From: Campylobacteraceae bacterium
Lineage (GTDB): Bacteria > Campylobacterota > Campylobacteria > Campylobacterales > Arcobacteraceae
DNA: 64,000 nt
NCBI GenBank assembly: GCA_013215945.1
Contig: JABSOM010000003.1
Location: forward strand, 213,987-277,986
Direction of reading: 5' to 3'
The notes under the pieces: generated by a model
Databases searched by the model: none
Seen by the model: only the letters and a program-made list of their open reading frames with translations
Told to the model about the DNA's origin: nothing
Made by a program: the position numbers and the translations under genes
Shown here: positions 22,513-49,153 of the stretch, piece by piece
Layout of the letters: every line of letters begins with the position of its first letter
Position numbering within the stretch: position 1 is the first letter of the stretch

Positions 22513-22546
22513 ATTATAAACAAACAAATTGCAAGTACTTTGCAAA
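22513..22546 (-). promoter_or_regulatory. Polysaccharide-locus promoter box, copy D
   Basis: On the minus strand: TTGCA-N6-TTGCA (direct repeat, 11-bp period; also the dyad TGCAA-N5-TTGCA), then exactly 11 bases, then TATAAT (22513-22518). A predicted start lies about 15-20 bases before the STAS ATG at 22488. This is the best copy of the five; the upstream repeat also stands at a plausible -35 distance overlap. Confidence 0.75.
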
Positions 22547-24472
22547 TCAATAAGAACCTTTTGAAAAAAACACAGCAGGAATTGTTTTAAGTAAAAGAAT
22601 AATATCGTATACAAAACCATGTTCTTTTATGTATTTTTTGTCCATAATCACCTGCTGTTTAAAAGGTATTTCACTTCGACCACTTACTTGCCAAATACAA
22701 GTAATTCCTGGTTTAATATCTAAACGTTTTCTGTCTTCTATACTATATTCTTCAACCTCACTTATAATTGGTGGTCGTGGCCCCACTAAACTCATCTCAC
22801 CTCTTAATACATTGAATAATTGTGGCAGTTCATCAAGGCTTGTTTTTCTGATAAATTTCCCTACTTTTGTAATTCTTGGATCATCTTTCATTTTAAAAGT
22901 TATCCCATCTTTTGATTCATTTTTTTGTACTAATTGTGTTTTTAAAGCAGAGGCATGCATTATCATTGATCTAAATTTATACATTTTAAATATTTTTCCA
23001 TTTTTTCCTACTCTGTTTTGACAAAAAAGAAAAGAGCCTTTAGATTCAATTCTAATAACAAGCCCAAGTACACAAAAGAGTGGTAAAAGTAGAAATAACA
23101 TAAGACCAGAAACAACAATGTCCATTAATCTTTTGAAGAAAGAAGAACAATTTAATTTAAGTTTCCATAAGATATTTTTGTATTTATAATGAAATGTATG
23201 TGCGTCATAGTTTTTTAAATAACTCTCAATCAAAATATTTTTATTAGAACTCTTTTTATATTGATACACCCCATATAAAAATTGGGGGTTTCCTATAAGA
23301 TACCTTTTCCACATTCTTTGTGGTTCTTGTAACATTCTATACGTCCACTCAAAACCAATTTCTCTTATAAAAAGAGGGGCTCTTTTTATAGATTTTGAAT
23401 AAAAATCAAACAAACCTCCTACTCCCAAAAACAGCTTTGCATCAATTTTATTTTTGTATTTTTCAATAAAAGCTTCTTGCACAGAAGCTCCTAAAGCAAC
23501 AAATAAAATATCCGCTTTTGATTGATTTATATCTCGTATTAATTGGGGAATATCTTGTTTTTGTACATAACCATGATGTACTCCCACAATTTGTAATGTT
23601 TTGTATTTTTTCAATAATTCGTCTTTTGCTCTTTGTGCAAGGCCTTTTTTAGCACCATAAAGATATATTTTATAATCTTGTTTTTGGGCCAGAGAACAAA
23701 TATAAGGAAATAAGTCGGTTCCATTTAAATTTTCTTTTAAAGGATTATCTAAGATATTACAGGCAATATTAATACCGCTACCATCAGGCAATATATAATC
23801 ACCTTTTTGCAAAATGTGTTTATAAACAGGATCCTTTTGACTTTTATTTAAACAATCCGCATTAACAAAATAGAGCGATTTTTTTTCTTTTTTGTCTACT
23901 GCATTTTTTATATTTTTTAATATCTCTATTCTTGTTAAATTATCAAATTCGATATCAAATAATTTTACTTTTGAACGGTAATTGATTATTTTTTTATAAT
24001 ATAAAAGAGAAATTAAGGATTTAATAAGTATTTTAAAATCGTAAAAGAAACTTCTATGTTTCAAATACTCTTTGTTACATTTGTATATTGAGGTATTAGG
24101 AATTTTATTATTTTTATGTACAAACCAAAGACTACACAGTCCAATTTTATTTTCATTTGTTTCATAAGAAGATTTTTCTTGACACTTAGCCAAGCCCACA
24201 AGTGAGATATCTCCTTTTAATATGTAATAAAACAAAGGAATATTTCTCGCAAATAGGGGCTCTGTATTATATACATAGAATTTTTCTTGTTTATTTATAA
24301 TAATACTTCTAAAAACATCTTTTTTTAAAAACATTTTATTTTTTATGAGATAATAAAAGAACAATAAAAATCCAAAACTTAAGACGCATAAAGATAAGAG
24401 ATATTCAAGACAACGTTTTTGAATACTGTAAAAATTTATTTTTTTCATAAAGTTTAATAATTTTTTTTGCAT
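22547..24472 (-). CDS. Tripartite initiating glycosyltransferase: decayed PGT + WecG/TagA-type + polyprenyl glycosylphosphotransferase
   Basis: 641 residues from ATG 24472 (GGAGATGTC upstream). Residues ~15-120 resemble a shortened bacterial sugar transferase: two hydrophobic segments and IPLFYYILKGDISLVGL, matching LPQLFNVLRGEMSLVGPRPP of the intact copy but without catalytic residues. Residues ~165-400 are a WecG/TagA/CpsF transferase (LFVNADCLNKS-like region, ILPDGSGINIA, NGTDLFP, LFVALGASVQEAFI, GVGGLFDF). Residues ~445-641 are an intact WcaJ/WbaP-type PGT: TM, FKMYKFRSM, KTSLDELPQLFNVL, SLVGPRPP, GITCIWQVSGR. It should load the first sugar phosphate on undecaprenyl phosphate and add the second sugar. 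Its start overlaps the end of the preceding glycosyltransferase by 68 bases. Confidence 0.88.
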   Translation of the reverse strand: MQKKLLNFMKKINFYSIQKRCLEYLLSLCVLSFGFLLFFYYLIKNKMFLKKDVFRSIIINKQEKFYVYNTEPLFARNIPLFYYILKGDISLVGLAKCQEKSSYETNENKIGLCSLWFVHKNNKIPNTSIYKCNKEYLKHRSFFYDFKILIKSLISLLYYKKIINYRSKVKLFDIEFDNLTRIEILKNIKNAVDKKEKKSLYFVNADCLNKSQKDPVYKHILQKGDYILPDGSGINIACNILDNPLKENLNGTDLFPYICSLAQKQDYKIYLYGAKKGLAQRAKDELLKKYKTLQIVGVHHGYVQKQDIPQLIRDINQSKADILFVALGASVQEAFIEKYKNKIDAKLFLGVGGLFDFYSKSIKRAPLFIREIGFEWTYRMLQEPQRMWKRYLIGNPQFLYGVYQYKKSSNKNILIESYLKNYDAHTFHYKYKNILWKLKLNCSSFFKRLMDIVVSGLMLFLLLPLFCVLGLVIRIESKGSFLFCQNRVGKNGKIFKMYKFRSMIMHASALKTQLVQKNESKDGITFKMKDDPRITKVGKFIRKTSLDELPQLFNVLRGEMSLVGPRPPIISEVEEYSIEDRKRLDIKPGITCIWQVSGRSEIPFKQQVIMDKKYIKEHGFVYDIILLLKTIPAVFFSKGSY

Positions 24473-25544
24473 GACATCTCCAATCATATTGTTTCGCTCT
24501 TTGCAAACCCGCTTTTTTCATTTGTGTTTGCAATTTTTCATTGTAAAGAACCATCATTATTGTGTTTTTTATGTTTATTTCATCGTATTCGTCAAAGAAA
24601 AAACAAACATCTTTTCCTATTTCTATTAAAGATGAGTTTGAAGCACATGCAACAGGTACGTTCATTGCCATTGCTTCGATTAAAGGAATTCCAAATCCCT
24701 CGTAAAGGGAAGGGAAAACAAACAGTTTCGCACGTGAAAAAAGAAAAGGCATGTCTTCATTTTTTACAAAACCAAGAAATTTTATGTGTTTTTTATCTTT
24801 AGATTTATTTACGTATTCATGAATGAAATTGGCATTTCCACAATCACTTCCTACCAACACCAGGTCATAGGTATTCTTAAGTTCTAAAGGCAAATTTTCG
24901 TAGGCTTTTATAAGATTAATATGGTTTTTTCCTGGATGCTCAATTCTAGATATGTATAAAATATATTTAGAAGTAAGATTAAACTTTCTTGTTTTTGTTG
25001 TTTTATTTTTATCATATAATTTTTTGTCAAATCCATTTGGATTGACTATTATATTTTCCTCTTTTACTTTTAAATACTTCAACATATCACTTTTTGTATT
25101 ATTGCTTACTGCAACAATTTTATCAATACCCCTTAAAAAAAGAGGAATAAAATGTTTTATATAGAACATTCTAAAACAATCGTATTTTTTCTTGATATAA
25201 AACTGTGATAAATCATGAAAACTAGCAATAGTATATAAAGGATAATATATCATGAGCCTTCTATTTGCTGCAGGTAAAAAAATGAAATCATATTTATTTG
25301 ATATTAAAAAAGGCAAAATAATAAAATGAAATAATATATTTAAAGCTGTGTGTTTTAAGAGATCTGGATATACAATAAAATGGATATTTTTATGTGTTCT
25401 TGTATAGTTTTTTATATCACTTTTTAAAATAGCCAAATATATTTCATTGTTTAAGGCTAAATTGAACACGCAGTTTTCGATATAGTTTGAAATTCCAGAT
25501 TTACCTTGATCAAAAACCAAAGCACTTACAAATATTTTATACAT
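24405..25544 (-). CDS. GT4-family glycosyltransferase
   Basis: 379 residues, GT-B fold of group 1 (GT4). N-terminal domain with IDKIVAVSNNTKSDMLKYL, C-terminal donor domain with KYILYISRIEHPGKNH, KIKFLGFVKNEDMPFLF-type region and the EX7E motif (FPSLYEGFGIPLIEAMAM). Probably adds a sugar from GDP- or UDP-sugar to the lipid-linked repeat on the inner face of the membrane. AAGGATTTAAG is upstream of the ATG, and promoter box C lies just before it. It heads a two-gene unit with the initiating transferase. Confidence 0.92.
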   Translation of the reverse strand: MYKIFVSALVFDQGKSGISNYIENCVFNLALNNEIYLAILKSDIKNYTRTHKNIHFIVYPDLLKHTALNILFHFIILPFLISNKYDFIFLPAANRRLMIYYPLYTIASFHDLSQFYIKKKYDCFRMFYIKHFIPLFLRGIDKIVAVSNNTKSDMLKYLKVKEENIIVNPNGFDKKLYDKNKTTKTRKFNLTSKYILYISRIEHPGKNHINLIKAYENLPLELKNTYDLVLVGSDCGNANFIHEYVNKSKDKKHIKFLGFVKNEDMPFLFSRAKLFVFPSLYEGFGIPLIEAMAMNVPVACASNSSLIEIGKDVCFFFDEYDEINIKNTIMMVLYNEKLQTQMKKAGLQRAKQYDWRCHAKKIIKLYEKNKFLQYSKTLS

Positions 25545-25565
25545 CTTAAATCCTTGTATTAATGA

Positions 25566-25599
25566 ATACTACGATTGTTTTATGCAAATACATTGCATT
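25566..25599 (-). promoter_or_regulatory. Polysaccharide-locus promoter box, copy C
   Basis: Minus strand: ATGCA-N6-TTGCA with 11-bp period (dyad TGCAA-N5-TTGCA), 11 bases, then the -10-like TAGTAT (25566-25571). The ATG of the glycosyltransferase follows at 25544. Confidence 0.7.
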
Positions 25600-25654
25600 A
25601 TATTTTAAAAAAATCAAGGATCTTATATATTTACAAGATCCATCTTTGAAATAT

Positions 25655-26533
25655 TTATTGATAATTCCCATATGTAGGTTCTTTATCTTTATTCTTTTTT
25701 CGTTTAATACCATTTTTATGTCCTAAATAATAGGCATAATGGTAAACCAAACGGAAAATCAATGTTTTAAAAAAACCAAATACATCAAAATATTTTAAAT
25801 GAAAAATAAAATCATGAAAAATAGAAGTGAGATAATTTTTAATCACTGTAAAAACATTTAATTTTAAATCAAAAATATAGGCATCTGCTTCCCCCTCAAC
25901 ATATTTTCTATTAAACAGCTGCTTAAAATTATAATTGTGAGAATGCATTACTAAAGCCTCTTTTACATATTGAATGTGATATCCTTTTTCTTTGATATCT
26001 ATTGCCCATTTTGTATCCTCAGAAGCCCAAGATTGGGTATAAAAAGGAACTTCTTTCCAAACCTCTCTTTTAATTGCAGCAAGAGGAAGAGAAAAGTGCA
26101 TCCATTCTGGTTTTTCTCCCATAGGAAAAGAAACTTCATAATCTCTTCTAACCCATAACATTGCTTCAGGACGGCAAACTTGTCTTGCAAACACGGCATG
26201 TGTATTTTTGTTCACCAGCCCATCCAATAAAAGCTGTAAGGTATTAGGTAAAAGCATGATACAGTCTGAATTTAGAAAAACAACAACATCGTTATTGCAT
26301 TTTTGTAAAACATAATTAATTACTTTTCCGGGATGATATTCTTGTGCTTTTATTTTTACAAGAGTATGTTTATATTTGGAACATTTTTCCAAGGTATCAT
26401 CTTTTGAACCTGAATCAACAATGATCAAATCAAAATGCGTAAAGCTTTGTGAAAATAAAGCTTTTAAACTTTGATCTATTATTAATGAAGAATCTTTTGT
26501 TCTCATTATTATTGAAACGCGTTTATCAAACAT
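25655..26533 (-). CDS. GT2-family glycosyltransferase
   Basis: 292 residues, GT-A fold: VSIIMRTKDSSLIIDQSLKA, LIIVDSGSKDDTLEKC, the metal-binding DxD-like VVFLNSDCI, and WASEDTKWAIDIKEKGY as the acceptor-side ED motif. A C-terminal membrane-proximal helix region without clear TM spans suggests peripheral attachment. It is the last gene of the unit starting at 29704, overlapping the deacetylase-like gene by 8 bases. Donor and linkage cannot be told from the sequence. Confidence 0.92.
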   Translation of the reverse strand: MFDKRVSIIMRTKDSSLIIDQSLKALFSQSFTHFDLIIVDSGSKDDTLEKCSKYKHTLVKIKAQEYHPGKVINYVLQKCNNDVVVFLNSDCIMLLPNTLQLLLDGLVNKNTHAVFARQVCRPEAMLWVRRDYEVSFPMGEKPEWMHFSLPLAAIKREVWKEVPFYTQSWASEDTKWAIDIKEKGYHIQYVKEALVMHSHNYNFKQLFNRKYVEGEADAYIFDLKLNVFTVIKNYLTSIFHDFIFHLKYFDVFGFFKTLIFRLVYHYAYYLGHKNGIKRKKNKDKEPTYGNYQ

Positions 26534-27350
26534 GACTTACTCCTTTTTTATTCAATAGCTCGCTCATATGAATATTTTCACACGTAGAGATATATTCCAA
26601 TATTTCATCCACTTTTTCAAACTTATCACACAAATACATTGTGATTGGATGGATAATGACATTTGATAAAAGCCCTTTTTGTTCATTTTCTTTTAATTGA
26701 TTTAAAAGCATTTCGCTCCACTCCTCGATATAATAAGAATTGGGACCAAAATCATCACTCCAGTTATATCTTTTTTGCCAGGTTTTAATCCATTTAGGTG
26801 TTCGTTCTGCATGAATTAGATGTTCATGGTCGGGAATAATATTGATAGGCAAATTGTATAATCCTGTTTTATGTTTTTGAAGTCCATAGGAGTTTTTTGA
26901 AACACCATCAGAACATATTTTTATGCCTGCTTTAAAAAGAACTTCTTCCGTGTTTACTCCATGCATATACATATGATTTCTCCATACTTTAATCGTTTTT
27001 CCAGACATTTTATAAATGATATCCATGGTTTTTAAAACGTCTTTTCTTTGAATCCATTTGGGACCATTATAATTTTTTGTCAATTTATTCCAAACACGAT
27101 GAAAAAACTCATATTCAAAAGCATTATAATTATGTCCTCCTGTTTCAATTAAGGGGTTATATATAATGGACGAGACATCATCAAACTCTTCTAAAAAAGA
27201 TTTTCCTGTTATAAAACAGGTCATTTTCACCTTATGTTTTTCCAAGCGTTTTAAAAAAGCGCGTGCTGTTTGCATTTCAGTGATATCACAATGTTTTTGA
27301 TTAAGCGTTTTTAGACTTTTATGGTGCAAATCACCTGTTAAACAAATCAT
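26526..27350 (-). CDS. Polysaccharide deacetylase-like protein with incomplete metal site
   Basis: 274 residues from ATG 27350 (TAAAGG upstream; an earlier in-frame start at 27371 lies within the preceding gene). The NodB-like (CE4) pattern is visible: ICLTGDLHH near the start (first Asp), VKMTCFITGKSFLE (the TFF strand), IETGGHNYNAFEY (motif 2) and VWRNHMYMHG (motif 3, normally RxPxG). Motif 2 should be H-x3-H, but here the second His is Ala, so one metal ligand is missing. It may be a weak or altered deacetylase, or a binding protein. The cytoplasmic location (no signal) is also uncommon for CE4 enzymes. Confidence 0.7.
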   Translation of the reverse strand: MICLTGDLHHKSLKTLNQKHCDITEMQTARAFLKRLEKHKVKMTCFITGKSFLEEFDDVSSIIYNPLIETGGHNYNAFEYEFFHRVWNKLTKNYNGPKWIQRKDVLKTMDIIYKMSGKTIKVWRNHMYMHGVNTEEVLFKAGIKICSDGVSKNSYGLQKHKTGLYNLPINIIPDHEHLIHAERTPKWIKTWQKRYNWSDDFGPNSYYIEEWSEMLLNQLKENEQKGLLSNVIIHPITMYLCDKFEKVDEILEYISTCENIHMSELLNKKGVSHV

Positions 27351-27360
27351 AAATAAACCT

Positions 27361-28548
27361 TTATAAACCATATTCTTTAAAAGAGAAATTATTGTTTACA
27401 TATTTTCCCCAATATAAAAGATATTGTTGTTTTAATAATGTGGAATCACTTGTGTTAATATGAAAAAAACTATTGAGTACATCGGTATTTTTATCTTGCA
27501 TTCCAAACGCTACATAAGGAAAAAGAAGGGGAAGCACTCCTTTGTATCCAAGCATTTTTACTCTTAATCTATTTGTTAAACTCAAGTTTTTTATCACATG
27601 ATTGGGCAAAAATAAATTGCGTATATTTTTTAAAACCATTTTAAGACTTAAGTTATGAGATAAAGAGTTTGACAAAGCAGTTTCAAAATAACCTTGCCAT
27701 TTGATATCTTTTTTTTGTAAAGACATTGCTTCACAGTTTAAATGTATTTGTTTGAGTATCTCTTTTACCTCATTTTGAAAGTCAATCAAATTAAGTTGTA
27801 AATATTTTTGATAATTGGGCTCAAACCTAAAAGCCATTGCGTCATCATACATTTTTTTAAAATTTTCATCAATATTTTTTTGATTTCTCATACGTATTTT
27901 TTTTTCAACATAAGAATAATGGTACTGCCCTTGATAGTATAAAAGAGCATCTCCATATCCTATGATTGCTTTTACACAATGTTTAATTATGGTTTTTAAA
28001 TCTTTCATTGTATGGTCTTTTTTCGCAAGTATCAAATCATTGATCGTAAGAAGGGTTCCTCTGTTTACCATCAAGTTACGTATATCCCAATCGGGTATAT
28101 TTTCAATATCAAAACGGCTCATATGCGTAAAAAAAGAGAAGTCGCCATTAATAACTTTATGACCATATTTCATATCATAGGTGATGACCAAAGGTTCACA
28201 TATTCTTAATTTAAATTCACCAATAAGTGAGAGATCAAAATCAATGTTAAAATGGCTGCAATGACTTGCGATTATTGAGTGAATGTTATTTTTAAGTTCG
28301 ATTTCTTTTGTCTTGCCAATATTTTTAGAAACAATCAAAAAATCTAAATTGTTATGGGGGAATTCCACATTCTGAATTTTTATTACACCTCCTTCACCTC
28401 TTCCATAACCTCCAATTAAAATCACACATGTATACGATGAAGAAACAATAGATGCTTCAATGTCACTGGAAATATCATTCAAGAGTTTTGTCATTTTCTC
28501 TTCAAAATGTACACTTCCTTTAAGACTTAATTTTCCAAAAGATTTCAT
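27361..28548 (-). CDS. Polymerase-beta-type nucleotidyltransferase-like protein
   Basis: 395 residues from ATG 28548 (AAGGAG upstream, one base after the preceding stop). The N-terminal ~120 residues have a Pol-beta NTase signature: VILIGGYGRGEGG, then NNLDFLIV, where the usual DxD is NxD, and a possible third acidic site in INIDFDLSLIG. The rest is helical and unlike known domains (YGDALLYYQGQYHYSY, AFRFEPNYQKYLQL). It is not one of the sugar nucleotidyltransferases of polysaccharide synthesis. Its place between glycosyltransferases suggests a modification (for example phospho-linked decoration) or regulation; this is inference. Confidence 0.65.
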   Translation of the reverse strand: MKSFGKLSLKGSVHFEEKMTKLLNDISSDIEASIVSSSYTCVILIGGYGRGEGGVIKIQNVEFPHNNLDFLIVSKNIGKTKEIELKNNIHSIIASHCSHFNIDFDLSLIGEFKLRICEPLVITYDMKYGHKVINGDFSFFTHMSRFDIENIPDWDIRNLMVNRGTLLTINDLILAKKDHTMKDLKTIIKHCVKAIIGYGDALLYYQGQYHYSYVEKKIRMRNQKNIDENFKKMYDDAMAFRFEPNYQKYLQLNLIDFQNEVKEILKQIHLNCEAMSLQKKDIKWQGYFETALSNSLSHNLSLKMVLKNIRNLFLPNHVIKNLSLTNRLRVKMLGYKGVLPLLFPYVAFGMQDKNTDVLNSFFHINTSDSTLLKQQYLLYWGKYVNNNFSFKEYGL

Positions 28549-28549
28549 T

Positions 28550-29704
28550 TTAAACTCCTTGTAATTTTTGATTGAAGATGTCAATCAAGTTATTTATATG
28601 TGTTTGGCTTTTAAAGTTATGTTGCGTACTTTTAAAAGCATTGAGGCAAAAATTTTTATGCAAGCTGGGATTTGAAATTAGGTCATTTATCTTAAGAGCC
28701 AAATCCTGCGCATTATTTGACTCAAAAAGAAAACCATTGTTGCCATGGATTAACCACTCTTTGATTGCTCCCACATTAGCAGCAATCACAGGAAGTCCGG
28801 CTTTTAAAGCTTCAACACCTGTTAAATTAAATGTTTCAGGTGTTCTGCTTGGCACAATTAAACAATAAGCACGTTGATAATAAAATAACAGTTTTTCATG
28901 CTCAATTTGTCCAATGAATTCGACTCGTTCTTCTATTTTTAATTTTTGGGCATAGTGTTTAAGAAATTCTTCTTGTGCTCCAGATCCTATGATTTTCAAA
29001 GAATATGATTTATCAATATTTTTCATTGCATTTAATAAAATATCTATACCTTTACCTGTAACTAATTGTCCCACATACAACAATGTTTTACTCTTGTTAA
29101 TATTCATACTGTTTTTATATTCAACATTGTCGTTTGCATACAAAGGATTGATCATTATTTTTGATGCTTCAAAATGATGAAGTTTTAAATGTTCTTTCAT
29201 ATAGGATGATGCGACAATAAAAAGATCTAAACGTTTGTTGATATCTTGCAGTTTTTGAAGTTTCCCCAAACTTGCTATTTTAAATCCATCTTGGGTTTTT
29301 TTGATAAATCCCAAACACGAATAACAGTCTAAACCTGTTTTACAAATACACGTTTTTTTACTCAAGGTTTTGTATTTATGTTCTCTTAAACAAAACAATT
29401 TATGATCATGATAAAATCTTATTTTTTTAACCTTAGACTTCATAATCTCTTCATAACTGGCATAATCATGTAACTGATGTATATATAAGAGGTCAGGATT
29501 AATATTTTGTATTTGTTCTTTGATACAAAGCAAAGGAAAAGCACTGTCAAATATATCAAGAAATTCATTTTCTACCTCAATATTTGGATCATAAAGAAGT
29601 GAAGATTTGATACCTTTTTTATTTAAATGTTTAACGGTATTGTAAATATACTGTTCTGCACCGCCACCTCTTGAAGCTTTATTGTTTATCCATAAAACAT
29701 GCAT
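28550..29704 (-). CDS. GT4-family glycosyltransferase
   Basis: 384 residues from ATG 29704 (AAAGGAGATGCG just upstream). Starts VLWINNKASRGGGAEQYIY, the typical GT4 glycine-rich acceptor loop; C-terminal domain SKTLLYVGQLVTGKGIDILL and the EX7E motif VPSRTPETFNLTGVEAL. A Cys-rich patch (KTCICKTGLDCYSCLG) in the N-terminal half, typical of a subset of GT4 enzymes, may bind metal. Leads the unit with the NTase-like, deacetylase-like and GT2 genes, behind promoter box B. Confidence 0.92.
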   Translation of the reverse strand: MHVLWINNKASRGGGAEQYIYNTVKHLNKKGIKSSLLYDPNIEVENEFLDIFDSAFPLLCIKEQIQNINPDLLYIHQLHDYASYEEIMKSKVKKIRFYHDHKLFCLREHKYKTLSKKTCICKTGLDCYSCLGFIKKTQDGFKIASLGKLQKLQDINKRLDLFIVASSYMKEHLKLHHFEASKIMINPLYANDNVEYKNSMNINKSKTLLYVGQLVTGKGIDILLNAMKNIDKSYSLKIIGSGAQEEFLKHYAQKLKIEERVEFIGQIEHEKLLFYYQRAYCLIVPSRTPETFNLTGVEALKAGLPVIAANVGAIKEWLIHGNNGFLFESNNAQDLALKINDLISNPSLHKNFCLNAFKSTQHNFKSQTHINNLIDIFNQKLQGV

Positions 29705-29727
29705 CGCATCTCCTTTATCAATACAAA

Positions 29728-29761
29728 ATTTTAACCTTCTTTTATGCAAATAAATTGCAAA
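29728..29761 (-). promoter_or_regulatory. Polysaccharide-locus promoter box, copy B
   Basis: Minus strand: TTGCA-N6-TTGCA (11-bp period; dyad TGCAA-N5-TTGCA), 11 bases, then TAAAAT (29728-29733). The glycosyltransferase ATG is at 29704. It occupies the short gap after the stop of the double glycosyltransferase (29772). Confidence 0.72.
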
Positions 29762-29771
29762 TTCTTAAGAG

Positions 29772-33318: not shown

Positions 33319-33328
33319 CTTTTATCCT

Positions 33329-36085: not shown

Positions 36086-36096
36086 ACTATTACCGC

Positions 36097-36504: not shown

Positions 36505-36509
36505 ACTAT

Positions 36510-36830
36510 TTATCTTAGATTAATAAAAGTGTCAAGCTTAGTGACATTAAATATCTCTTGTATAAAAGTACTACTGTTTATGATAGTCAAGTTTTGATTT
36601 TTTGATAGTAGTTTTTTATAGATATTTATAATCATAGCCAAACCCGAACTGTCTATAAAATTTATGGAAGAAAAATCAAGTTCAAGTTCTTCTAATTCGC
36701 TTTCTTGAATTTCTAGTACATAGGGGCTTAATAAGCCTTGAATCTCTTTTAAATTCGTAGCATCAATTCTATCATCATCAATAAAAATTATTTGTATTTG
36801 AGTATTAGACTTTTTAATATTTAAATTCAT
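36510..36830 (-). CDS. STAS-domain anti-anti-sigma-type protein
   Basis: 106 residues, a single STAS domain: VLEIQESELEELELDFSSIN and FIDSSGLAMIINIYKKL with the phosphorylatable Ser in DSSG. It is the RsbV/SpoIIAA partner of the adjacent kinase, and a second STAS protein (22105-22488) shares the locus. The gap from the flippase stop (36872) is about 40 bases with no promoter box, so it is probably read through from the flippase operon. Confidence 0.88.
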   Translation of the reverse strand: MNLNIKKSNTQIQIIFIDDDRIDATNLKEIQGLLSPYVLEIQESELEELELDFSSINFIDSSGLAMIINIYKKLLSKNQNLTIINSSTFIQEIFNVTKLDTFINLR

Positions 36831-36871
36831 TCTTTAGCTCCTAAATATTCTATACGTAAAACAATTATACA

Positions 36872-38422: not shown

Positions 38423-39570
38423 AAAATATCCTTTTGGGCAGTGCGTACTAAAACATTTTCAACTTCTTTTTTTACACTTAAAAGATTGAATTTTTCAAAT
38501 ACTTTAAGGAAAGCTGCATTTCTTAAGTTCTCGTACAAAACAGTATTACTGTGTATTTTAAGTATTTTTTTTGTCAAATCATTAACATCTTCATTTTTAA
38601 AGAGCAAACCGTCTTTATTGTGAGTAATAATTTCAGCAGGTCCATAAGCATTTGTAGCAATAACTACTACACCTGCTGCCATTGCTTCAATTATGACCAA
38701 TCCAAAAGGTTCTCTCATTCGTGTGGGCATTAACAAAACATCATAGTTTTTGTAGTATTTGTTTATATCCTCTTTTTTACCACAAAACTTCACTTCTTTG
38801 TCCAAATTCAAAACCTTAATGATTTTTTTACATTTATTTATATAACCTTCATGGCCTTCTCCGTATATATGAAGTTCAAAATTAAAGAAACCTCTGTCTT
38901 TTAAATTACTCAAGGCTTTTAACGCCAAATCCAAACCTTTGCTATAGTCAATTCTGCCGCAAAACATATATCTTATTTTTTTGCTCAAGTTGCTTTTTTG
39001 TTTTTGATATATCTTGACGCCATTGGGAATAACATAGGTCTTTTTTGCCAAATATTTGTTTTTCATCTCTTTTTCAATCCACTTTGAGACACAAATTGAT
39101 GGGGAGAATTCCACAAAAGAACCCACGAAAAAAGGCAAATAATTTTTAATACTTCTTTTTAATTTAGCAAAAATTGTATTTTGGAAATAACCCTTCATCC
39201 ACAAATCTCCAATTTCAAATACTTTTTTTATCTGAAGTTTCTGAACAGCAAGGGCAGGGGAAAGGGAAATCAAACGAAGAGACCAAAAATAGACCAAATC
39301 AGGTGTGATTTTTTTTATTAATTCTTGGGTGAGCTCATAATTATAAACTTCAACCTTGTGTTTATCAAAATAAGAAGGGTTTTCATAATTGATATATTTT
39401 AATTTTCTGTAAATTTCCTCAAACTCTATGCTCTCATTTTTATAATTGCCTGTTAATACATAGACTTCATGCCCACAATCTTTTAAATATTGTACGGTAT
39501 CAAAACAAGCCACTTCGTAACCCCCAATGTAATAAGGAGGGTAATAATTGCTGATAACTAAAATTTTCAT
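38419..39570 (-). CDS. GT4-family glycosyltransferase
   Basis: 383 residues from ATG 39570 (AAAGGATGCACA upstream; a longer frame to 39615 lies in the neighbouring gene). Starts ILVISNYYPPYYIGGYEV, the typical acceptor loop; C-terminal donor domain KIRYMFCGRIDYSKGLDLAL and MPTRMREPFGLVIIEAMAAG with canonical EX7E. Cytosolic; probably peripheral on the membrane. Order after the polymerase and a small membrane protein. Confidence 0.92.
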   Translation of the reverse strand: MKILVISNYYPPYYIGGYEVACFDTVQYLKDCGHEVYVLTGNYKNESIEFEEIYRKLKYINYENPSYFDKHKVEVYNYELTQELIKKITPDLVYFWSLRLISLSPALAVQKLQIKKVFEIGDLWMKGYFQNTIFAKLKRSIKNYLPFFVGSFVEFSPSICVSKWIEKEMKNKYLAKKTYVIPNGVKIYQKQKSNLSKKIRYMFCGRIDYSKGLDLALKALSNLKDRGFFNFELHIYGEGHEGYINKCKKIIKVLNLDKEVKFCGKKEDINKYYKNYDVLLMPTRMREPFGLVIIEAMAAGVVVIATNAYGPAEIITHNKDGLLFKNEDVNDLTKKILKIHSNTVLYENLRNAAFLKVFEKFNLLSVKKEVENVLVRTAQKDIL

Positions 39571-39583
39571 TGTGCATCCTTTA

Positions 39584-40051
39584 TTATTTGAGTAAATGGC
39601 CGTCAAACAAATCAACTCCTATGAGTGATTTTATATAATATAAAGCCAAAAAGATTGCAAAAACCAAAGATAATGCAACACTTAAGACAAATATTGATGA
39701 AATAAACATCAAGAAAAGTTCCCAGATGAAATTTTTATTGAATTGTCTGCTTTTATCTCTTTTTTCATGTCCCAAATAAAAAGTAATATAAAAGAGTTTA
39801 AAAAACCAAAAACAAATATTTATTTCAATGACTTTTTTAGTTTGTCTGGGAAGAGCAAGATTTATCAATCTTTTGCTTTCTCTTTTTTGTTCATTGTTCA
39901 TACTCTCTTCAATCAAAGGATTTATTTTTGAAAAAATAAAATCTTCACTAATAGAGGGAAAACCTAGGCTCTCATTATTTTCGCAAGGAGACTGTTTTTG
40001 TATACTTGCTGTACTGCTTTCACTGCTTGACGTTTCATTTACTGTTTTCAC
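39584..40051 (-). CDS. Hypothetical membrane protein, 155 residues
   Basis: Not recognised. The N-terminal ~70 residues are Ser/Glu-rich and polar, followed by a hydrophobic segment (INICFWFFKLFYITFYLG) and a long C-terminal span (LFLMFISSIFVLSVALSLVFAIFLALYYI). It overlaps the polymerase gene by 17 bases and lies 13 bases before the glycosyltransferase, so it is clearly part of the operon. It might be an accessory to the polymerase, or a regulator of chain assembly; this rests on position only. Confidence 0.7.
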   Translation of the reverse strand: MKTVNETSSSESSTASIQKQSPCENNESLGFPSISEDFIFSKINPLIEESMNNEQKRESKRLINLALPRQTKKVIEINICFWFFKLFYITFYLGHEKRDKSRQFNKNFIWELFLMFISSIFVLSVALSLVFAIFLALYYIKSLIGVDLFDGHLLK

Positions 40052-41360
40052 TTGAAATCCTTTCTTTTATTATTCTGCTAATTGCACCAATGACTGCGAA
40101 TATAAACATTAGTTGATAAAAATTGTTTGTTTGTTTGAGTACCCACTCTAAAGAAGATTGTAAATAAATACTTAATAAAGCCCCAATCAATGCAATACAT
40201 ATATATCTGTATTTGCGCCACTTACCACGTTTTAATTTCATATAATTATTCAGGTTTTTAAAATAAAAAAATACAAGCATGAAACTAAACACAGCTAAAT
40301 TCACCCATCCTGTTTCTGCTGCTATCATTAAATAAACTGTTTCAACCAAACCGCCTTTTTCTTCATCATCTATTCTTTTTATATGATTGCCATAAGTATA
40401 AGGAGGGTTTATTTTCAAAGCAAAATTATTAAGACCAATGCCGAATATTTTGTCATTTGCCATATTTTGTGCCGCTTTTGCTAAAATCAGCCTTACACTA
40501 ACCGATTCTTTAGGTGCTGTTCTAATGCGCTCCATAATAGTATCGCTGGCTTTAAATAAAACGCCTGTTCCTAAGATCATAAGCAGACCTGCCACTCCCA
40601 CTTTTCTCCAAGAGAATTTATGGGCGTAAGACAGAATGAAAATTATGAAAATTGAAAGACTAAATAAAACCATACCTGCTCGTGAAAGAGTGGATAAAAT
40701 ATTTATGGCACAAGACCCAAATGCAAGGGTCCATAAAAAAAGATTGGATTTTTTAACATTTAACAAATAAGAGAGAAAAAAACTGCCGTAAACAATTAAA
40801 TACATAACCAGAGAGTTTTGATGGGGAAAAGGTCCTCTTGCTTGAAACATTCCTTCAAAATATTTTTGTTTTAATACCAATACGGTTATAAAGAATACAA
40901 TGAAACACATATATTTTAAAAATTCTTCAATATCTTTAAAAGAACGAATCAAATTATAAATGACAAAAAAGTATAAATACATTCGCAACATTTTCCACAG
41001 TTCAAAAAAGGAATAAATATATATGTCACTGTTTATAATAGAAATACAAGAAAAAGTAAAATACATAAAATACAAAGAACTTCCAAGAGGTAAAGATAAA
41101 GGATATTTTTCACGTCTGCTAAAAAGTACAAGTAACATTATCATGGCAGTAATATCTACCAAACCTATTTCAAAACCTTTTGAAGTCCCTCTGTAAAGCT
41201 CCATAGAAAAAAAGTTTATATCTTCTGTACTGGCAGTAAAAAAAAGCAATAAAAACCATAAGAGTTTTTCTACTTTAGGAAATCTTTTTGCCAGCATAAA
41301 AGCAATAGGAATTCCTAAAAATATTACAATAAAAAATATAATATATTTAAACTCAGTCAT
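40035..41360 (-). CDS. Wzy-like polymerase / O-antigen ligase family protein
   Basis: 441 residues with about 11 hydrophobic spans and one large periplasmic loop (about residues 275-345) containing IFGIGLNNFALKINPPYTYG and GGLVETVYLMIAAETGW, the pattern of O-antigen ligase/Wzy (PF04932-type) proteins: FGIGxNNF followed by HN-type residues and an E-T-G-W stretch. PFPHQNSLVMYLIVYG upstream is another family feature. Most probably polymerises repeat units in the periplasm. No exosortase or PEP-CTERM gene is in the window. Confidence 0.88.
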   Translation of the reverse strand: MTEFKYIIFFIVIFLGIPIAFMLAKRFPKVEKLLWFLLLFFTASTEDINFFSMELYRGTSKGFEIGLVDITAMIMLLVLFSRREKYPLSLPLGSSLYFMYFTFSCISIINSDIYIYSFFELWKMLRMYLYFFVIYNLIRSFKDIEEFLKYMCFIVFFITVLVLKQKYFEGMFQARGPFPHQNSLVMYLIVYGSFFLSYLLNVKKSNLFLWTLAFGSCAINILSTLSRAGMVLFSLSIFIIFILSYAHKFSWRKVGVAGLLMILGTGVLFKASDTIMERIRTAPKESVSVRLILAKAAQNMANDKIFGIGLNNFALKINPPYTYGNHIKRIDDEEKGGLVETVYLMIAAETGWVNLAVFSFMLVFFYFKNLNNYMKLKRGKWRKYRYICIALIGALLSIYLQSSLEWVLKQTNNFYQLMFIFAVIGAISRIIKERISSENSK

Positions 41361-41369
41361 GATATACCT

Positions 41370-41900
41370 TTAAAGCACTTTTCTGTATTTAATGACTTTG
41401 GCTGGAATACCAACCACCACCGCATATTTTGGTGTATCTTTTAGTACCACACTGTTTGCACCAATTCTGCTGTAATCATCAAGAAGAATTTTTCCAAGAA
41501 TTTTTGCTCCGGTTCCAATTTCTACATAATCTCCCAAGGTTGGATTTGATGTTTCATGTTCTTCTCCTCTATCTCCTAGAGTAACGCCTTGGTGAATAAT
41601 ACAATTGTGACCAATGATGGCATATTCTCCAATGACTACACCGCTTGGATGAGGAAGATATAATCCTCCTTGTATTTTGGCTCCTTTTGCTATATCACAG
41701 CCAAAAAGAACAAAATTTATCGTTGAAAATATTTTGGCTATTATTCCCAAATGACTCTGCTGAAAAAAACTTGAAATGCGAAATAAGATGACAGGGTACA
41801 TTCTTGGATTTAGTACCATGAAATAATCTTTTATTCCCAATGTCTCTTTATTCCTAAACATAGAAATATCTTCTTTTATTAATATAAATAAATTTTTCAT
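41370..41900 (-). CDS. Serine acetyltransferase-like O-acetyltransferase
   Basis: 176 residues with hexapeptide beta-helix turns (GVVIGEYAIIGHNCIIHQGV, GDYVEIGTGAKILGKILL, SRIGANSVVL) in the CysE/EpsC style, but without the N-terminal CysE domain, and VVVGIPAKVIKYRKVL at the C terminus (VxGxPAK). The His of GHNCIIHQ is the likely catalytic base. Here it probably acetylates a polysaccharide sugar or precursor rather than serine. It is 1 base upstream of the polymerase side and between Wza-like and polymerase genes. Confidence 0.85.
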   Translation of the reverse strand: MKNLFILIKEDISMFRNKETLGIKDYFMVLNPRMYPVILFRISSFFQQSHLGIIAKIFSTINFVLFGCDIAKGAKIQGGLYLPHPSGVVIGEYAIIGHNCIIHQGVTLGDRGEEHETSNPTLGDYVEIGTGAKILGKILLDDYSRIGANSVVLKDTPKYAVVVGIPAKVIKYRKVL

Positions 41901-41901
41901 T

Positions 41902-43017
41902 TTAATCTCCTGTTATTATTTCTTTAAGTAAAAATGTATTTAACACGGCATCCAAACTTGGCATTATCAATCCCAAAATAGTATTCCAGTCACCTAATTT
42001 GCTAGAAGAGATAAAAACAATATCATTGGGTTTAATCCTAAAATCTTTTTGTTTTCCCTCAATTATTTTTGTCAAGTTTGCAACATAAACAATAGGATTG
42101 GTTAAATTTCCTCTTATAATTGCCACTTCATCTATATTTGCACTTGTTTTATATCCTTTTGCGTAGGTTATTAATTGAAGCAAAGTCATTTTTTCTTTGA
42201 AGCCAAAATGACCCGGTTCTTTTACTTCTCCTAATACATAAACCTCACTGTTTAAAGCAGAAGGAATATAGATATAATCTTTATCTTCTAAAGGAATATT
42301 ATGCAAAGGATTGCCTTTTCTTACTAACTCTATAAAATTAACCGGTAATACTTTATTGTCTCTTCTTATATACGCATGTTCTAAATCTGCCAACTCAACC
42401 GTATTATTTTCAAAAATACCAATAGAGAGACCTTGCGCCATTGCAATACTGTCTATTACTTTGCTATTGTTCGTAATTGCATATCTTCCTGGTTCATTAA
42501 TTTTCCCCAAGATAGTAAAACTCTCACTTTTTAATTCATAAAGTACAAGAGAAATTATGGGATTAATTAAAAACTTACGAAGTTTAAATGAAAGCTCTTT
42601 CATCGCTTCATTAACGCTTAATCCTGCTATTGTCACATCTCCAACTAATTGCAACGTCACTGTTCCATCTGGTTTTACTACTGCACCTTTTATATTTAAT
42701 TCAGGCTCCCCATAAACAAAAACATTAAACTTGTCACCCACTCCTATTTTATAATCCTCTTTTTTCTTGATATGTAAAAGAAGAAGTTCTTTTTTAATTT
42801 CATTTTCATTTTTGCCTCCATATAAAATGTCAAAATCTTTTTCAATAACTACATATTTTTCTTTTTTTTCAAGCGTTCTTTTTAGGGAGTTTTCTGTGTT
42901 ATTGGTTTTTTTGTTTATAACACTCATTTCAGGTTTAGGACTGGGAATACAACCTGCATAAAAAACAAAAATCACTAAAAACAATAAATATTTAAATATA
43001 TTTTTTATGAATAACAT
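41902..43017 (-). CDS. Wza-type polysaccharide export lipoprotein
   Basis: 371 residues. Signal peptide with lipobox FYAGC near residue 23 followed by IPSPKPEM, so it is a lipoprotein. Then a Poly_export domain (YKIGVGDKFNVFVYGEPELN, VKPDGTVTLQLVGDVTIAG) and two SLBB domains (FTILGKINEPGRYAITNN, EVYVLGEVKEPGHFGFKEKM). The C-terminal part, including PNDIVFISSSKLGDWNTILG, may form the outer-membrane helix of the channel. Forms the exit pore with the Wzc-like protein; gene start overlaps its neighbour by 26 bases. Confidence 0.94.
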   Translation of the reverse strand: MLFIKNIFKYLLFLVIFVFYAGCIPSPKPEMSVINKKTNNTENSLKRTLEKKEKYVVIEKDFDILYGGKNENEIKKELLLLHIKKKEDYKIGVGDKFNVFVYGEPELNIKGAVVKPDGTVTLQLVGDVTIAGLSVNEAMKELSFKLRKFLINPIISLVLYELKSESFTILGKINEPGRYAITNNSKVIDSIAMAQGLSIGIFENNTVELADLEHAYIRRDNKVLPVNFIELVRKGNPLHNIPLEDKDYIYIPSALNSEVYVLGEVKEPGHFGFKEKMTLLQLITYAKGYKTSANIDEVAIIRGNLTNPIVYVANLTKIIEGKQKDFRIKPNDIVFISSSKLGDWNTILGLIMPSLDAVLNTFLLKEIITGD

Positions 43018-44971
43018 TGAGTACTCCTTTAATGTTTTTTATTCCTTTTTTTCTCATCGTTGTAATCAATTCTTTTAAATCTCTTCTGTTAGAAACTCTG
43101 TATTTACAGATTAAACAGACAAAACTTGCAAAATTTGCTAGGGAAGAAAAAAGAAAGGGATTGGACTGGCTGTTTGATACTTCTAAAAATATATAATCAT
43201 ATTCACTTTGATTCAAACTCTTAAAGAAATGCTGCAGACTTTTTACATCTGCTAAGTCATATCTATTTTTTTGATTTATTAAAAGATATGCTTTATCTAC
43301 CTTGTCATTTATTTTATTAAACAAAGAATAATTAATGTTTTTTTCATAAAACAAAGCATCATTCAAGAGCGCATTTTTTGTTTCTTCTTCATTTTTTGAG
43401 ATGCTTTGGATAAATAAAACTTTTTTATTTTGGCGAGATAAGAGCTGCATTAGTTTTTCAATGACAAAGGTTTTTCCTGTATGTGAAACATCACTTCCAA
43501 AAATAACTGTTTTAGGTGCATCAAATTTTCCACAAGTATTTATGAAATTATCAAAAAAATGCATAGAATATTTGATGTTTAGATCACTTGTTTCTTTCTC
43601 ATCTAATAATGTTCCCAATACCTCTATCTTAAATCTTTTTTCTAAATCAAAACTCTCTTTTATTTTGTTATTAAAAAACTCTAGGAGTAAAATACTGGCA
43701 ATTGATAAGGAAAGACCTAAAAACCCGAACATTAAGATGATGGCTTTTCTGTAAGTAGGTTGTGCATATTTGGGTGGTGTTGCATATTCTAAGAATTTGA
43801 AATCCTCTAAAGATGATTCTAATGCCATTTTTAGTTCATTCAATCTGTTTGTGACTTTATACATCAAATCTGTATCTTGACTCAAGTTTGACTCTATAAT
43901 TTTAAATTCTTTTTCTAAATGATTTAAATCTTTAATTTCTTCTTGTATGAAACTTTGTTGTTTTACTAGATTTTTCATTCTTGTATGACTTGATATTATT
44001 CCAATTTGACTTTTTGCTTCTTCAATTTTCAGCGCCGTCACTACTGGATTATTTCCAAAGGTTGTTTCATCAGGTATTGTTTTTGTATTATTTTTATTAA
44101 ATAATTCTTTTTCCATAATCAAAATCTCATCTGTGATTTTTTTTACTTTTGGATTCAAGAGAGTATATCTCTGTTTTAATTTTCGTAATTCTTTTTTCTT
44201 ATTTTCTAAGTTTTTTATATTGGCTGATCTTACTGTATATTTGAGTTGGACTTGTAAAGGAATATTTTTTAAACTTCTTTTTATCTCCTGTACTTTACTT
44301 GCAAACTCTTTTTGTGCGATTTTACTTTCAATAAGACTCAAATCAATTTCATTTAACTGTTTGTATTTGTACTCTTTTTGTATTCTTATAGATAAGACTT
44401 TATGTTTTTTAATAAATTTTTCTTTTTTTTGTAGAGACAAATCAATGTTTTTTTGTATTTTATTTTTTTCTTTTGCATAATAGTGATAAATCTCTTTTGT
44501 TGCAGCATTTTGTACTTCATAAAAATTCTTTAAAAATATTTCACTTAGTACATTTGCTCCTTTAACCGCTTTTTTAATATCTTTATTGCTGTATCTTATT
44601 TCTATGATGTCTGAATTTCTTCCTCTTTTGATTTCAAAAGCAGAGTAAAGTTTTTCAACGGTGCTATCAAGATTCAATACTTGAATCACTTCGCTTAGAT
44701 TTTTTCTGGTTCTTATTGTTTGTAAAGCGGTATCATAATTAAAGTTCTGGAATTTATAAGGAACATCTCGTGGCATCGATATTTTCTTGTCATATCTGAT
44801 TAATTTAACGGTTGCTTTATACGTTGGTTTAATCAGATTTTTTGAAAGAAAAATTCCTGCAATTAAAGAAAAAAGGGTAATAACTAAAATAAGCAGAGAT
44901 TTATATCTTAATACTTTTAAATAATAGTATGGGTTGATTAAAAAACCGTTATCTATATTATCTTTTTTCAT
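42992..44971 (-). CDS. Wzc-like chain-length/export protein with degenerate ATPase
   Basis: 659 residues from ATG 44971 (AAAGAGATTAATA upstream). N-terminal TM and Wzz domain (LKVLRYKSLLILVITLFSL), a long periplasmic coiled coil with KKIKN-like helices, a second TM preceded by the proline-rich PPKYAQPTYRKA (family motif), then a cytosolic domain with Walker A-like SDVSHTGKTF. The Walker A' Asp region reads VLFIQSIS and the Walker B region YDYIFLEVSN, both without the expected Asp residues, and the C terminus has no tyrosine cluster, so tyrosine kinase activity is doubtful. It likely still couples polymerase to export pore. Confidence 0.88.
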   Translation of the reverse strand: MKKDNIDNGFLINPYYYLKVLRYKSLLILVITLFSLIAGIFLSKNLIKPTYKATVKLIRYDKKISMPRDVPYKFQNFNYDTALQTIRTRKNLSEVIQVLNLDSTVEKLYSAFEIKRGRNSDIIEIRYSNKDIKKAVKGANVLSEIFLKNFYEVQNAATKEIYHYYAKEKNKIQKNIDLSLQKKEKFIKKHKVLSIRIQKEYKYKQLNEIDLSLIESKIAQKEFASKVQEIKRSLKNIPLQVQLKYTVRSANIKNLENKKKELRKLKQRYTLLNPKVKKITDEILIMEKELFNKNNTKTIPDETTFGNNPVVTALKIEEAKSQIGIISSHTRMKNLVKQQSFIQEEIKDLNHLEKEFKIIESNLSQDTDLMYKVTNRLNELKMALESSLEDFKFLEYATPPKYAQPTYRKAIILMFGFLGLSLSIASILLLEFFNNKIKESFDLEKRFKIEVLGTLLDEKETSDLNIKYSMHFFDNFINTCGKFDAPKTVIFGSDVSHTGKTFVIEKLMQLLSRQNKKVLFIQSISKNEEETKNALLNDALFYEKNINYSLFNKINDKVDKAYLLINQKNRYDLADVKSLQHFFKSLNQSEYDYIFLEVSNSQSNPFLFSSLANFASFVCLICKYRVSNRRDLKELITTMRKKGIKNIKGVLNVIHKKYI

Positions 44972-46106
44972 TATTAATCTCTTTTTCCATAACACGTCTA
45001 ATATCTGTTATGCTTTGTATTTCGTCATCTATTGTTGTGCTTGAGAACATTAATGCATTTGAATCTTTATGGTCAGGGTGAAAACCGTGCATTCCTGGTA
45101 TTACTTTTAATCCAAAATAACTGGGATTGATTAATATGCCAGGTTTGGTTAAAAAGAATACTTCTCCAAAACGATTGCCTTCAAAAAAAACATGCATTTT
45201 TTTCAACTCATCATGTGTAACAATAGAGCCTTCTTCAACATTTTCAAGAATTCCTTGTATTTTAATTTTTGCAGTTTCATTCATAAACCAGAATCTGGCC
45301 ATGGTAGAATCATACATTGCAACATAATCTTTTCCATACTCTAAATTACTTTCTTCTATAGAAGAAATTAAATCAATACTTCCTGTTGTATCACACATTC
45401 CATGGTCACTGAAAATATGTAGGCTCACTTCATCATAATGATTACACGCATGCATATACACATCTTCTATTTGTTCTTCTAACCATAAAAGTTTATTTTT
45501 GGTCTCATCTTTTTGTGTACCATAGGTATGCATAACACCATCAAGAGTAGGAAGGTACAAATAAGTAAATTCTATTTCTTTTTTTTCTATCTCTTTTTTT
45601 AAAACATTAATGTTATATGTTTCACTTTTTCTCCAGTTGGAACAGTGGTAAGGGATATTATTTTCCACACACCAGTCAAAAATGGTATCCGTTTTTAATA
45701 TTCCTTTGGGAACAAAATAGTCTCTTTTCTCAAGATAATCAAAATAAGGAAGATATTTAAAAGGCACACTGTAAAGCTCAAAATATCCTGTATAACCATA
45801 AAATATTTTTATTAATTTACTCAAATAATGTCTTGGTCTAAAACGATCAAAAATTATCTTAGGCAAAAAGGATAAATACTTAAAAAATTTAAAAGGAGAG
45901 TTTTTAGGATCGTAATAAAAGCTTGACCAGTGAGTATGTTCATCCGGATAACGTCCCGTAAGAATGGAAGGATCAGCTGCAGAAGAAAAACCAAAGGTCG
46001 TTTTTAAAGGTTTTGCATCTTTTATAATTGAGAGATTAAAACCGTGTTTTTTATATACCTCCCAGCCAAAACCATCAATAAAAACAAAAAGTGATAACTT
46101 TTTCAT
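44958..46106 (-). CDS. Alkaline phosphatase-superfamily phosphodiesterase/phosphatase
   Basis: 382 residues from ATG 46106 (AAAGGATGTAAC upstream). Type I phosphodiesterase/nucleotide pyrophosphatase pattern: metal-binding SLFVFIDGFGW at the N terminus, FSSAADPSILTGRYPDEH (nucleophile loop, with Ser or Thr), THWSSFYYDPKNS, FSDHGMCDTTGS (metal His/Asp) and PGMHGFHPDH near the C terminus. No signal peptide. First gene of the polymerase-export-flippase operon; it may remove or add a phosphodiester-linked group on the polysaccharide or hydrolyse an NDP-sugar. Function inferred by context only. Confidence 0.82.
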   Translation of the reverse strand: MKKLSLFVFIDGFGWEVYKKHGFNLSIIKDAKPLKTTFGFSSAADPSILTGRYPDEHTHWSSFYYDPKNSPFKFFKYLSFLPKIIFDRFRPRHYLSKLIKIFYGYTGYFELYSVPFKYLPYFDYLEKRDYFVPKGILKTDTIFDWCVENNIPYHCSNWRKSETYNINVLKKEIEKKEIEFTYLYLPTLDGVMHTYGTQKDETKNKLLWLEEQIEDVYMHACNHYDEVSLHIFSDHGMCDTTGSIDLISSIEESNLEYGKDYVAMYDSTMARFWFMNETAKIKIQGILENVEEGSIVTHDELKKMHVFFEGNRFGEVFFLTKPGILINPSYFGLKVIPGMHGFHPDHKDSNALMFSSTTIDDEIQSITDIRRVMEKEINNEKR

Positions 46107-46132
46107 GTTACATCCTTTTTTCAATTTTTATG

Positions 46133-46166
46133 ATTGTAATAAATAAGTGTGCAAACAAAATGCAAA
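46133..46166 (-). promoter_or_regulatory. Polysaccharide-locus promoter box, copy E
   Basis: Minus strand: TTGCA-N6-TTGCA (11-bp period), exactly 11 bases, then TACAAT (46133-46138). The first gene of the largest unit starts at 46106, about 20 bases after the predicted transcription start. Confidence 0.72.
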
Positions 46167-49150: not shown

Positions 49151-49153
49151 AAC

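Follow-up and report, generated by a model that had tools for sequence, protein, structure and literature searches.

The pho box has been described as a 22-bp site of two direct repeats, each of 7 bp plus 4 A/T-rich bp, that in Escherichia coli usually replaces the -35 element near a sigma-70 -10 element (PMC4971064). In Vibrio fischeri, SypE is reported to control the STAS protein SypA below the level of syp transcription, and SypG, according to a title in the reference list of the same paper, is sigma-54-dependent and acts with an enhancer sequence (PMC12369376). For the Fap operon, a C39-like FapD, a FapF resembling COG4313 channels and a FapC with three 37-residue repeats have been described (PMC6173800). 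Here we analysed 64,000 nucleotides of a Campylobacteraceae bacterium (assembly GCA_013215945.1, contig JABSOM010000003.1, positions 213,987 to 277,986; hereafter the window), in which five copies of a direct-repeat box precede the transcription units of a predicted polysaccharide locus. It is highly probable, on comparative sequence evidence, that the boxes are binding sites of the OmpR/PhoB-family response regulator encoded in the locus; acting from the place of the -35 element, this protein would turn on each of the five units, including the one to which its own gene belongs.

The regulator shares with PhoB a receiver plus winged-helix build, and its proposed sites share with the pho box the 11-bp period and the place of the -35 element. 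Pho half-sites are TGTCA and PhoR differs from the kinases of the locus. The half-site found here is TGCA and the targets are matrix rather than phosphate genes, so membership in the Pho regulon was considered and dropped. As in the syp system, a polysaccharide locus carries its own response regulator and has a STAS protein, an RsbW-like kinase and a SpoIIE-type phosphatase beside the polysaccharide genes. SypG, however, depends on sigma-54, whereas an OmpR-type protein would act here from the -35 position, and no NtrC-type protein was found among the 26 locus products. Unlike in the SypE/SypA case, the receiver-SpoIIE phosphatase, RsbW-like kinase and STAS protein (34832-36830) and a second STAS protein (22105-22488) are separate proteins within the locus. 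The parallel suggests the same circuit logic, a dedicated regulator plus a partner-switching module, assembled with an activator of another class. Like SypE with SypA, the partner-switching set may work at a level below transcription.

The locus consists of 26 minus-strand genes at 17.0-46.1 kb of the window and encodes Wzx, Wzy, Wza and Wzz-like proteins, glycosyltransferases, sugar-nucleotide enzymes, the partner-switching set and four two-component proteins; two of the 26 products had no Pfam match. All five boxes were found exactly at the coordinates, on the strand and in the 34-bp layout given in a preliminary description of the window (Table 1). Their common core is TGCA-N7-TGCA, a direct repeat of 11-bp period, followed after 11 bases by a -10 hexamer, which by sequence puts the box in the place of a -35 element at a constant distance. 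The first half-site had been given as TTGCA throughout; this holds for boxes 1, 3 and 5, but box 2 reads CTGCA and box 4 ATGCA. The interval to the ATG, earlier put at 20-45 bases, is corrected to 21-37 nucleotides (nt) past the hexamer, equal to 38-54 nt past the second TGCA. Four intergenic gaps in the locus exceed 50 bp (58, 64, 110 and 111 bp) and each holds one box, with the fifth box at the upstream end of the locus, while no box occurs at the remaining 21 of 25 junctions, where the genes overlap or are separated by no more than 41 bp.

Comparison with orthologous loci, proposed in the preliminary description, showed the boxes to be conserved both within the genus and in a second genus. 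In what follows G000 is the source genome, other G and L numbers are further genomes and locus pieces, and C numbers are contigs. Gene order was kept in G003 and G002, of the same genus, as far as covered, and in G001 in the part compared, from the gene of a 407-amino acid protein to the last kinase. It was also kept in G036, from another genus and with a regulator 70% identical, except for an extra 171-amino acid frame and the last kinase, no counterpart of which was found after the regulator. All five junctions carry a box in G001, G003 and G036 too, as do the four junctions covered in G002. Between G000 and G036 the cores were identical at 40 of 40 positions and the tested -10 positions at 10 of 10, compared to 23/35 in the within-box spacer, 17/55 in the N11 spacer and 60/195 (roughly 31%) upstream. 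The comparison is a clean footprint. Even the weak -10 of box 2 is conserved, in five genomes.

The box was then found to follow the regulator clade. Nine regulator loci with at least 57% identity (189 kb) contained 32 TGCA pairs with an 11-bp spacing; shuffled sequence gave 2.65 on average, and 1.07 Mb of control loci had 18, or 3.2 when scaled. With each of the 32 boxes read both ways, the offset of the -10 peaked at exactly 11 (21 of 64 readings). Copies of box plus -10 numbered 4, 3, 4, 1, 1, 1, 6, 1 and 0 in these nine loci and 0 and 1 in two further loci at 46-47% identity; such copies were near 9 of the 11 regulator relatives, two of which (the window and G003) are of one genus, and near none of 71 loci of more distant OmpR-type regulators. 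The pairs L078/G001, L079/G003, L080/G002 and L082/G411 are, by length, the same contigs and were counted once. A class-wide search of 397 genomes gave nine, G000 included, with the regulator at E <= 1e-50, of which the six previously unseen were examined, G411 being the L082 genome. Boxes with a -10 at 11 bases were present at the regulator loci of the later-examined G295, G104 and G263; a looser arrangement, a box with TTTAAT in a divergent gap, was seen in G393 and G228, whose regulators are 41-43% identical. In two genomes with regulators of this identity the TGCA box with TTTAAT, at 12434(+) of L184 and 8241(-) of L185, faces an operon of receiver genes, the L184 stretch as scanned also encoding CheW, a methyl-accepting chemotaxis protein, a CheA-like protein and CheR.

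Over 24 pieces, one of which (L186) was included because of its match, 104 box readings were obtained from 52 boxes read both ways. An in-register -10 was present in 46 of these under a loose definition that was widened after the sites had been seen and admits AAAACT, NATAAT and TTTAAT. A start codon lay 34-64 nt downstream in 37 of the 46. A 37-site table gives a half-site consensus of about YTGCAATYTWT, in which the -10 columns are biased by the choice of sites with an in-register -10 and the TGCA columns are set by the search; the count over 11 loci and 71 controls and the G036 footprint are the less selected tests. Boxes also occur in loci of 37-46% guanine-cytosine (GC) content. Judging from these sequences, the box is almost always retained by relatives that have retained the regulator gene.

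Both domains of the regulator, PF00072 and PF00486, score above cut-off, and its gene is the sole one among the 26 locus products with a Trans_reg_C domain, in agreement with the earlier statement that it is the only OmpR/PhoB-type regulator of the locus. The predicted phosphate-accepting D51 and the conserved K101 are invariant in 17 aligned proteins. In a tree that included 22 of the 71 controls and omitted G002 as a near copy, the relatives fell on one side of a branch with 100/99 support (16 box-bearing rows plus L085 and G040, which were not assessable), labels having been assigned after the boxes were known. The putative recognition helix, whose position comes from the alignment alone, is TI[SA]SH[IVL]RDIR in 14 of 14 tree rows at 57% identity or more, T[MI]A[TS]HMRDL in G040 and G059 and TI[LI]STMR[DN]L in G393 and G228; its residues differ in the 22 control regulators. 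A plasmid tblastn search gave, among the matches listed, 37% identity at best and no orthologue. A relative of the receiver-HATPase protein adjoins the regulator in every other locus whose adjoining DNA was covered.

Of 16 genomes with judgeable DNA upstream of the regulator, G000 included, 12 have a box in front of the unit that contains it. The box is in the right orientation in G000, G001, G002, G003, G036 and L081; further cases are L084, L083 (147 nt, weak -10), L086 (several genes upstream), G104 and G059/L045 (both at longer distance) and G263 (with one mismatch). In G393 and G228 the -10 of the box favours the facing operon rather than the regulator unit, and L085, G058 (L043) and G040, in which the upstream DNA is lacking, stand outside the 16. 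The preliminary proposal of a PhoB-type promoter, bound by this regulator and subject to autoregulation, has therefore gained strong comparative support from a box that tracks the clade, a nearly constant putative recognition helix and the 12 of 16 headed units. The regulator is most likely a PhoB-style activator dedicated to the biofilm matrix that usually controls its own operon.

A whole-genome scan for the box, which had been suggested with a matrix, was carried out as pattern searches. The pattern NTGCA-N6-TTGCA-N11-TANNNT has five exact matches in the 3.24 Mb of G000, four of which are inside the locus; the fifth (C14:15449) lies antisense within a 106-amino acid frame and was dropped as a site. 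The TTGCA/TTGCA form with one mismatch allowed gave 18 matches. One of these, C10:77156, has a -10 at 11 bases and its second half-site 44 nt before the start of a gene for a 394-amino acid lipoprotein-like protein, and is, as a predicted site, a convincing unlinked copy of the box; the earlier finding of no copy outside the locus thus holds for the window but not for the genome. C9:105557 (TTGCATTCTTTTTGCA) was rejected because it has no in-register -10 and overlaps a gene start, and one-mismatch matches such as TTGCACAGTTTTTACACA (C4:14933 and C17:42239), in good promoter context, were left uncounted on account of a different second half-site.

Across 60 genomes the strict pattern TGCA-N6-TTGCA-N11-TANNNT matched 3-6 times in each of five close carriers of the regulator (24 matches in total, 17 in the locus), compared to 50 matches in all, and at most 4 each, in 52 genomes without a close relative. 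Since non-carriers average about one match per genome, a chance background exists. A looser pattern, TGCA-N7-TGCA-N12-ANNAT, gave 10 matches in G000, 5 of them in the locus (two being one box); 5 in G036, of which the locus has 2 and the lipoprotein-like gene 1; and 11 in G263, with 5 clustered over 20 kb at the polysaccharide locus (one being the same box read on the other strand). It gave 6 matches in G295, 4 within 9 kb of the regulator; 6 in G104, 4 of them promoter-like and within 12 kb of the regulator, with a further nearby one intragenic; 4 in G411, 2 at the regulator; and 7 in G058, 1 at the regulator. Other repeats were also encountered. The inverted repeat TGCAACTWAGTTGCA, at C4:101697 and C4:107077 of G000 and also in G002, G008, G011, G012, G015, G025, G029 and G036, resembles a binding site for some other regulator and accounts for some of the background matches. 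Two other genes (L165 1434(+) and L166 1772(-)) are preceded by TTGCACA/TTTACACA repeats that have a -10 at 11 bases and are also present in G001; these probably belong to another OmpR-type regulator. In G039 (C1:598353, 820325, 946602 and 2139605), a genome without a close regulator relative, there are four direct repeats of the TTGCAC type with a -10.

The predicted regulon is wider than the polysaccharide locus. The 394-amino acid protein of G000 is a lipoprotein by eye and has no Pfam match; a box was first noticed before its gene and that of its relative in G036 (46% identity), and the closest homologues in G002 and G003 (45% and 44%), inspected afterwards, both proved to have one, so that the count is four of four. 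No match to the gene was found in G001, and weaker relatives (L223, L228, L229 and L230) had no box in the DNA covered, a scan that left out L224-L227 (a weak match from G025 and second pieces of genes covered before). A box also precedes a TolC-like gene in G001 and G002 (L159 2385 and L160 2444; 98% identical to each other) that is absent at that identity level from G000 and G003 and that in G001 adjoins another OmpR-type gene. In L086, a Sulfurimonas metagenome-assembled genome (MAG), boxes precede glycosyltransferase, sugar-transferase, STAS, ManC and other genes, and in G263 they stand at relatives of PDE388, GT4x2, GT4_379, WecG and the NTP transferase; the G263 gene at the STAS position (117 amino acids, no Pfam match) has a box with one mismatch.

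In G104, G295, L084 (a Nitratiruptor MAG) and L082/G411 boxes precede genes for N/Q-rich repeat proteins of 536-1279 amino acids with a signal-like N-terminus and repeats of about 75-90 residues. The G104, G295 and L084 stretches also encode a C39 peptidase (PF03412, above cut-off in all three) and a porin-like PF13557 protein (above cut-off in one of the three). The C39 gene directly follows a box in G295, while in G104 the box precedes a 94-amino acid gene that is followed by the C39 gene; in G411 a gene that is C39-like by eye is on another contig with its own box. At 13903-14005 of L082 four TGCA half-sites at exact 11-bp steps and a further box lie between divergent genes, one of which encodes the 1279-amino acid N/Q-rich protein. 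The combination of N/Q-rich repeat proteins, C39 peptidase and PF13557 protein is Fap-like in gene content and would be of amyloid type, but the repeats of about 75-90 residues differ from the three 37-residue repeats of FapC. We consider it rather probable that a single regulator and box extend across the Campylobacterota, with a recognition helix nearly unchanged over several families and the controlled product exchanged, a polysaccharide in the Arcobacter-type and Sulfurimonas-type loci and G263 and an amyloid-type fibre in G104, G295 and the Nitratiruptor-type locus, together with unlinked surface lipoproteins.

In the mechanism that we propose, two phosphorylated regulator monomers would bind the TGCA half-sites head to tail and recruit a sigma-70-type RNA polymerase to a promoter without a -35 of its own; the four half-sites at 11-bp steps in L082 would fit cooperative binding of this kind. 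Phosphate would be supplied by the adjoining kinases and receiver proteins of the same operon, and control of the regulator's own operon would give positive feedback, so that the whole system would be a biofilm-matrix switch. It is likely that the regulator turns on all genes of the biofilm coat together, and probably an unlinked surface protein with them.

Several observations weigh against assigning the boxes to this regulator. The -10 of box 2 is weak, one G003 site has CATTAT and L083 has TAGAGT. As TGCA is self-complementary the boxes can be read both ways, and their orientation rests on the -10. No box was found in L085, where the regulator is at the start of a 6.5-kb contig, in L044/G040, of which about 19 kb downstream was scanned with the upstream side cut off, or before the regulator operon in G295 and L082/G411. 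The TTTAAT-bearing box of G393 and G228 faces a receiver/chemotaxis operon and not matrix genes. The distant carriers G058, G059 and G040 have 1, 1 and 0 strict-pattern matches, no more than non-carriers, a pattern that is too narrow to judge distant carriers, and the non-carriers G018 and G039 have 4 exact matches each. Given 50 scored matches to OmpR-type regulators in G000, cross-binding by other members of the family is possible.

These 50 matches, the OmpR-type neighbour of the boxed TolC-like gene in G001 and the counts in G018 and G039 would also fit boxes that belong to a different regulator, such as a paralogous OmpR-type protein elsewhere, with the local regulator a mere neighbour. 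We regard this as improbable, for in L084, G104, G295 and L082, which lack the polysaccharide genes, the boxes stay with the regulator, its receiver-HATPase partner and hybrid kinases, the 71 control loci are without a box, and the strict-pattern matches are concentrated in the close carriers. It is somewhat less improbable, yet still unlikely, that the boxes serve for repression, or for both activation and repression according to the phosphorylation state of the regulator. Position alone carries no sign, and the fair -10 hexamers of boxes 1, 3, 4 and 5 might work unaided; the box nevertheless fills the -35 place, and the conserved weak -10 of box 2 is what would be expected of an activator-dependent promoter.

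The boxes might alternatively be variant -24/-12 elements of sigma-54 promoters, as the 11 bp between GC dinucleotides and the TTGCA of the second element fit such a site. The sigma-54 consensus has GG at -24, where all five sites have TG; together with the constant register of the -10 and the four half-sites of L082 this led us to drop the sigma-54 reading, to which we give very little credence; no NtrC-type protein was found among the 26 locus products either. In an AT-rich genome short stretches between genes may agree by chance or common descent, and this could account for the antisense match and for the background in non-carriers. As an explanation of the boxes it is already refuted by the shuffle and control counts and by the G036 footprint, in which the cores stand out from an intergenic identity of about 31%, unless the counts are in error, and boxes in loci of 37-46% GC speak against it as well; its probability is negligible. 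Activation by the regulator of the locus hence remains the preferred reading.

The kind of regulator is already known, and the regulon and the change of output appear new. Neither was described in the retrieved portions of the open-access literature on Arcobacter/Sulfurimonas exopolysaccharide, Campylobacterota biofilm and OmpR, and Epsilonproteobacteria Fap; for a TTGCA direct repeat with OmpR, these sources held a Sinorhizobium system and not the present regulon. To our knowledge little has been described on biofilm control in free-living Campylobacterota. A recognisable box would make a biofilm-matrix regulon readable straight from genomes and finds further matrix genes, the lipoprotein-like and TolC-like genes having been found in this way. 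It also opens the question of how the sequence read by a regulator can stay the same when its product shifts from a sugar polymer to an amyloid-type fibre.

Table 1. Boxes, transcription units and other features of the polysaccharide locus (positions in the window)
Feature	Position	Strand	Conservation or basis
Box 1, TTGCA-N6-TTGCA-N11-TACAAT, before the phosphodiesterase-like/Wzz-like/Wza/Wzy unit	46133..46166	-	kept in G001, G002, G003, G036
Box 2, CTGCA-N6-TTGCA-N11-AAAACT (weak -10), before the ManC unit	34758..34791	-	AAAACT in G000-G003, GAAACT in G036
Box 3, TTGCA-N6-TTGCA-N11-TAAAAT, before the GT4 (399-amino acid frame) unit	29728..29761	-	kept in G001, G002, G003, G036
Box 4, ATGCA-N6-TTGCA-N11-TAGTAT, before the GT4 (379 amino acids)/WecG-sugar transferase unit	25566..25599	-	kept in G001, G003 (hexamer CATTAT), G036
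Box 5, TTGCA-N6-TTGCA-N11-TATAAT, before the STAS/kinase/regulator unit; candidate promoter for autoregulation	22513..22546	-	kept in G001, G002, G003, G036
Box-1 unit: phosphodiesterase-like, Wzz-like (below cut-off), Wza, hexapeptide transferase, Wzy, protein without Pfam match, GT4, Wzx, STAS, RsbW-like, receiver-SpoIIE phosphatase	34832..46124	-	Pfam
Box-2 unit: ManC, NTP transferase, double GT4	29772..34720	-	Pfam
Box-3 unit: GT4, protein without Pfam match, polysaccharide deacetylase, GT2	25655..29749	-	Pfam
Box-4 unit: GT4 and WecG/Bac_transf fusion	22547..25544	-	Pfam
STAS protein, first gene of the regulator unit	22105..22488	-	Pfam
Hexapeptide-repeat protein, 294 amino acids	21258..22142	-	Pfam
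Hybrid histidine kinase-receiver, 474 amino acids	19820..21244	-	Pfam
Receiver-HATPase protein, 343 amino acids; gene overlaps the regulator gene by 4 bp	18792..19823	-	Pfam
OmpR/PhoB-family response regulator (receiver PF00072, Trans_reg_C PF00486), proposed box binder	18145..18795	-	Pfam, alignment, tree
Receiver-histidine kinase, 370 amino acids (HisKA below cut-off), last gene of the regulator unit	17024..18136	-	Pfam
Stem-loop resembling a terminator, with a T tail; lies between the GT2 gene and box 4	25618..25641	-	consensus scan only

A first scan of short 3.6-kb loci found no boxes; in G000 that stretch stops short of the nearest box. A scan with the sigma-70 consensus gave no excess over shuffles, and the consensus scan for terminator-like stems found none at the three internal box gaps other than that of box 4, so that transcription may read through from one unit to the next. 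Beside the locus, at 48848-50413, a 100-amino acid frame that is helix-turn-helix-like by eye is followed by a HipA-type protein (PF07804, PF13657), the two forming a HipBA-like pair.

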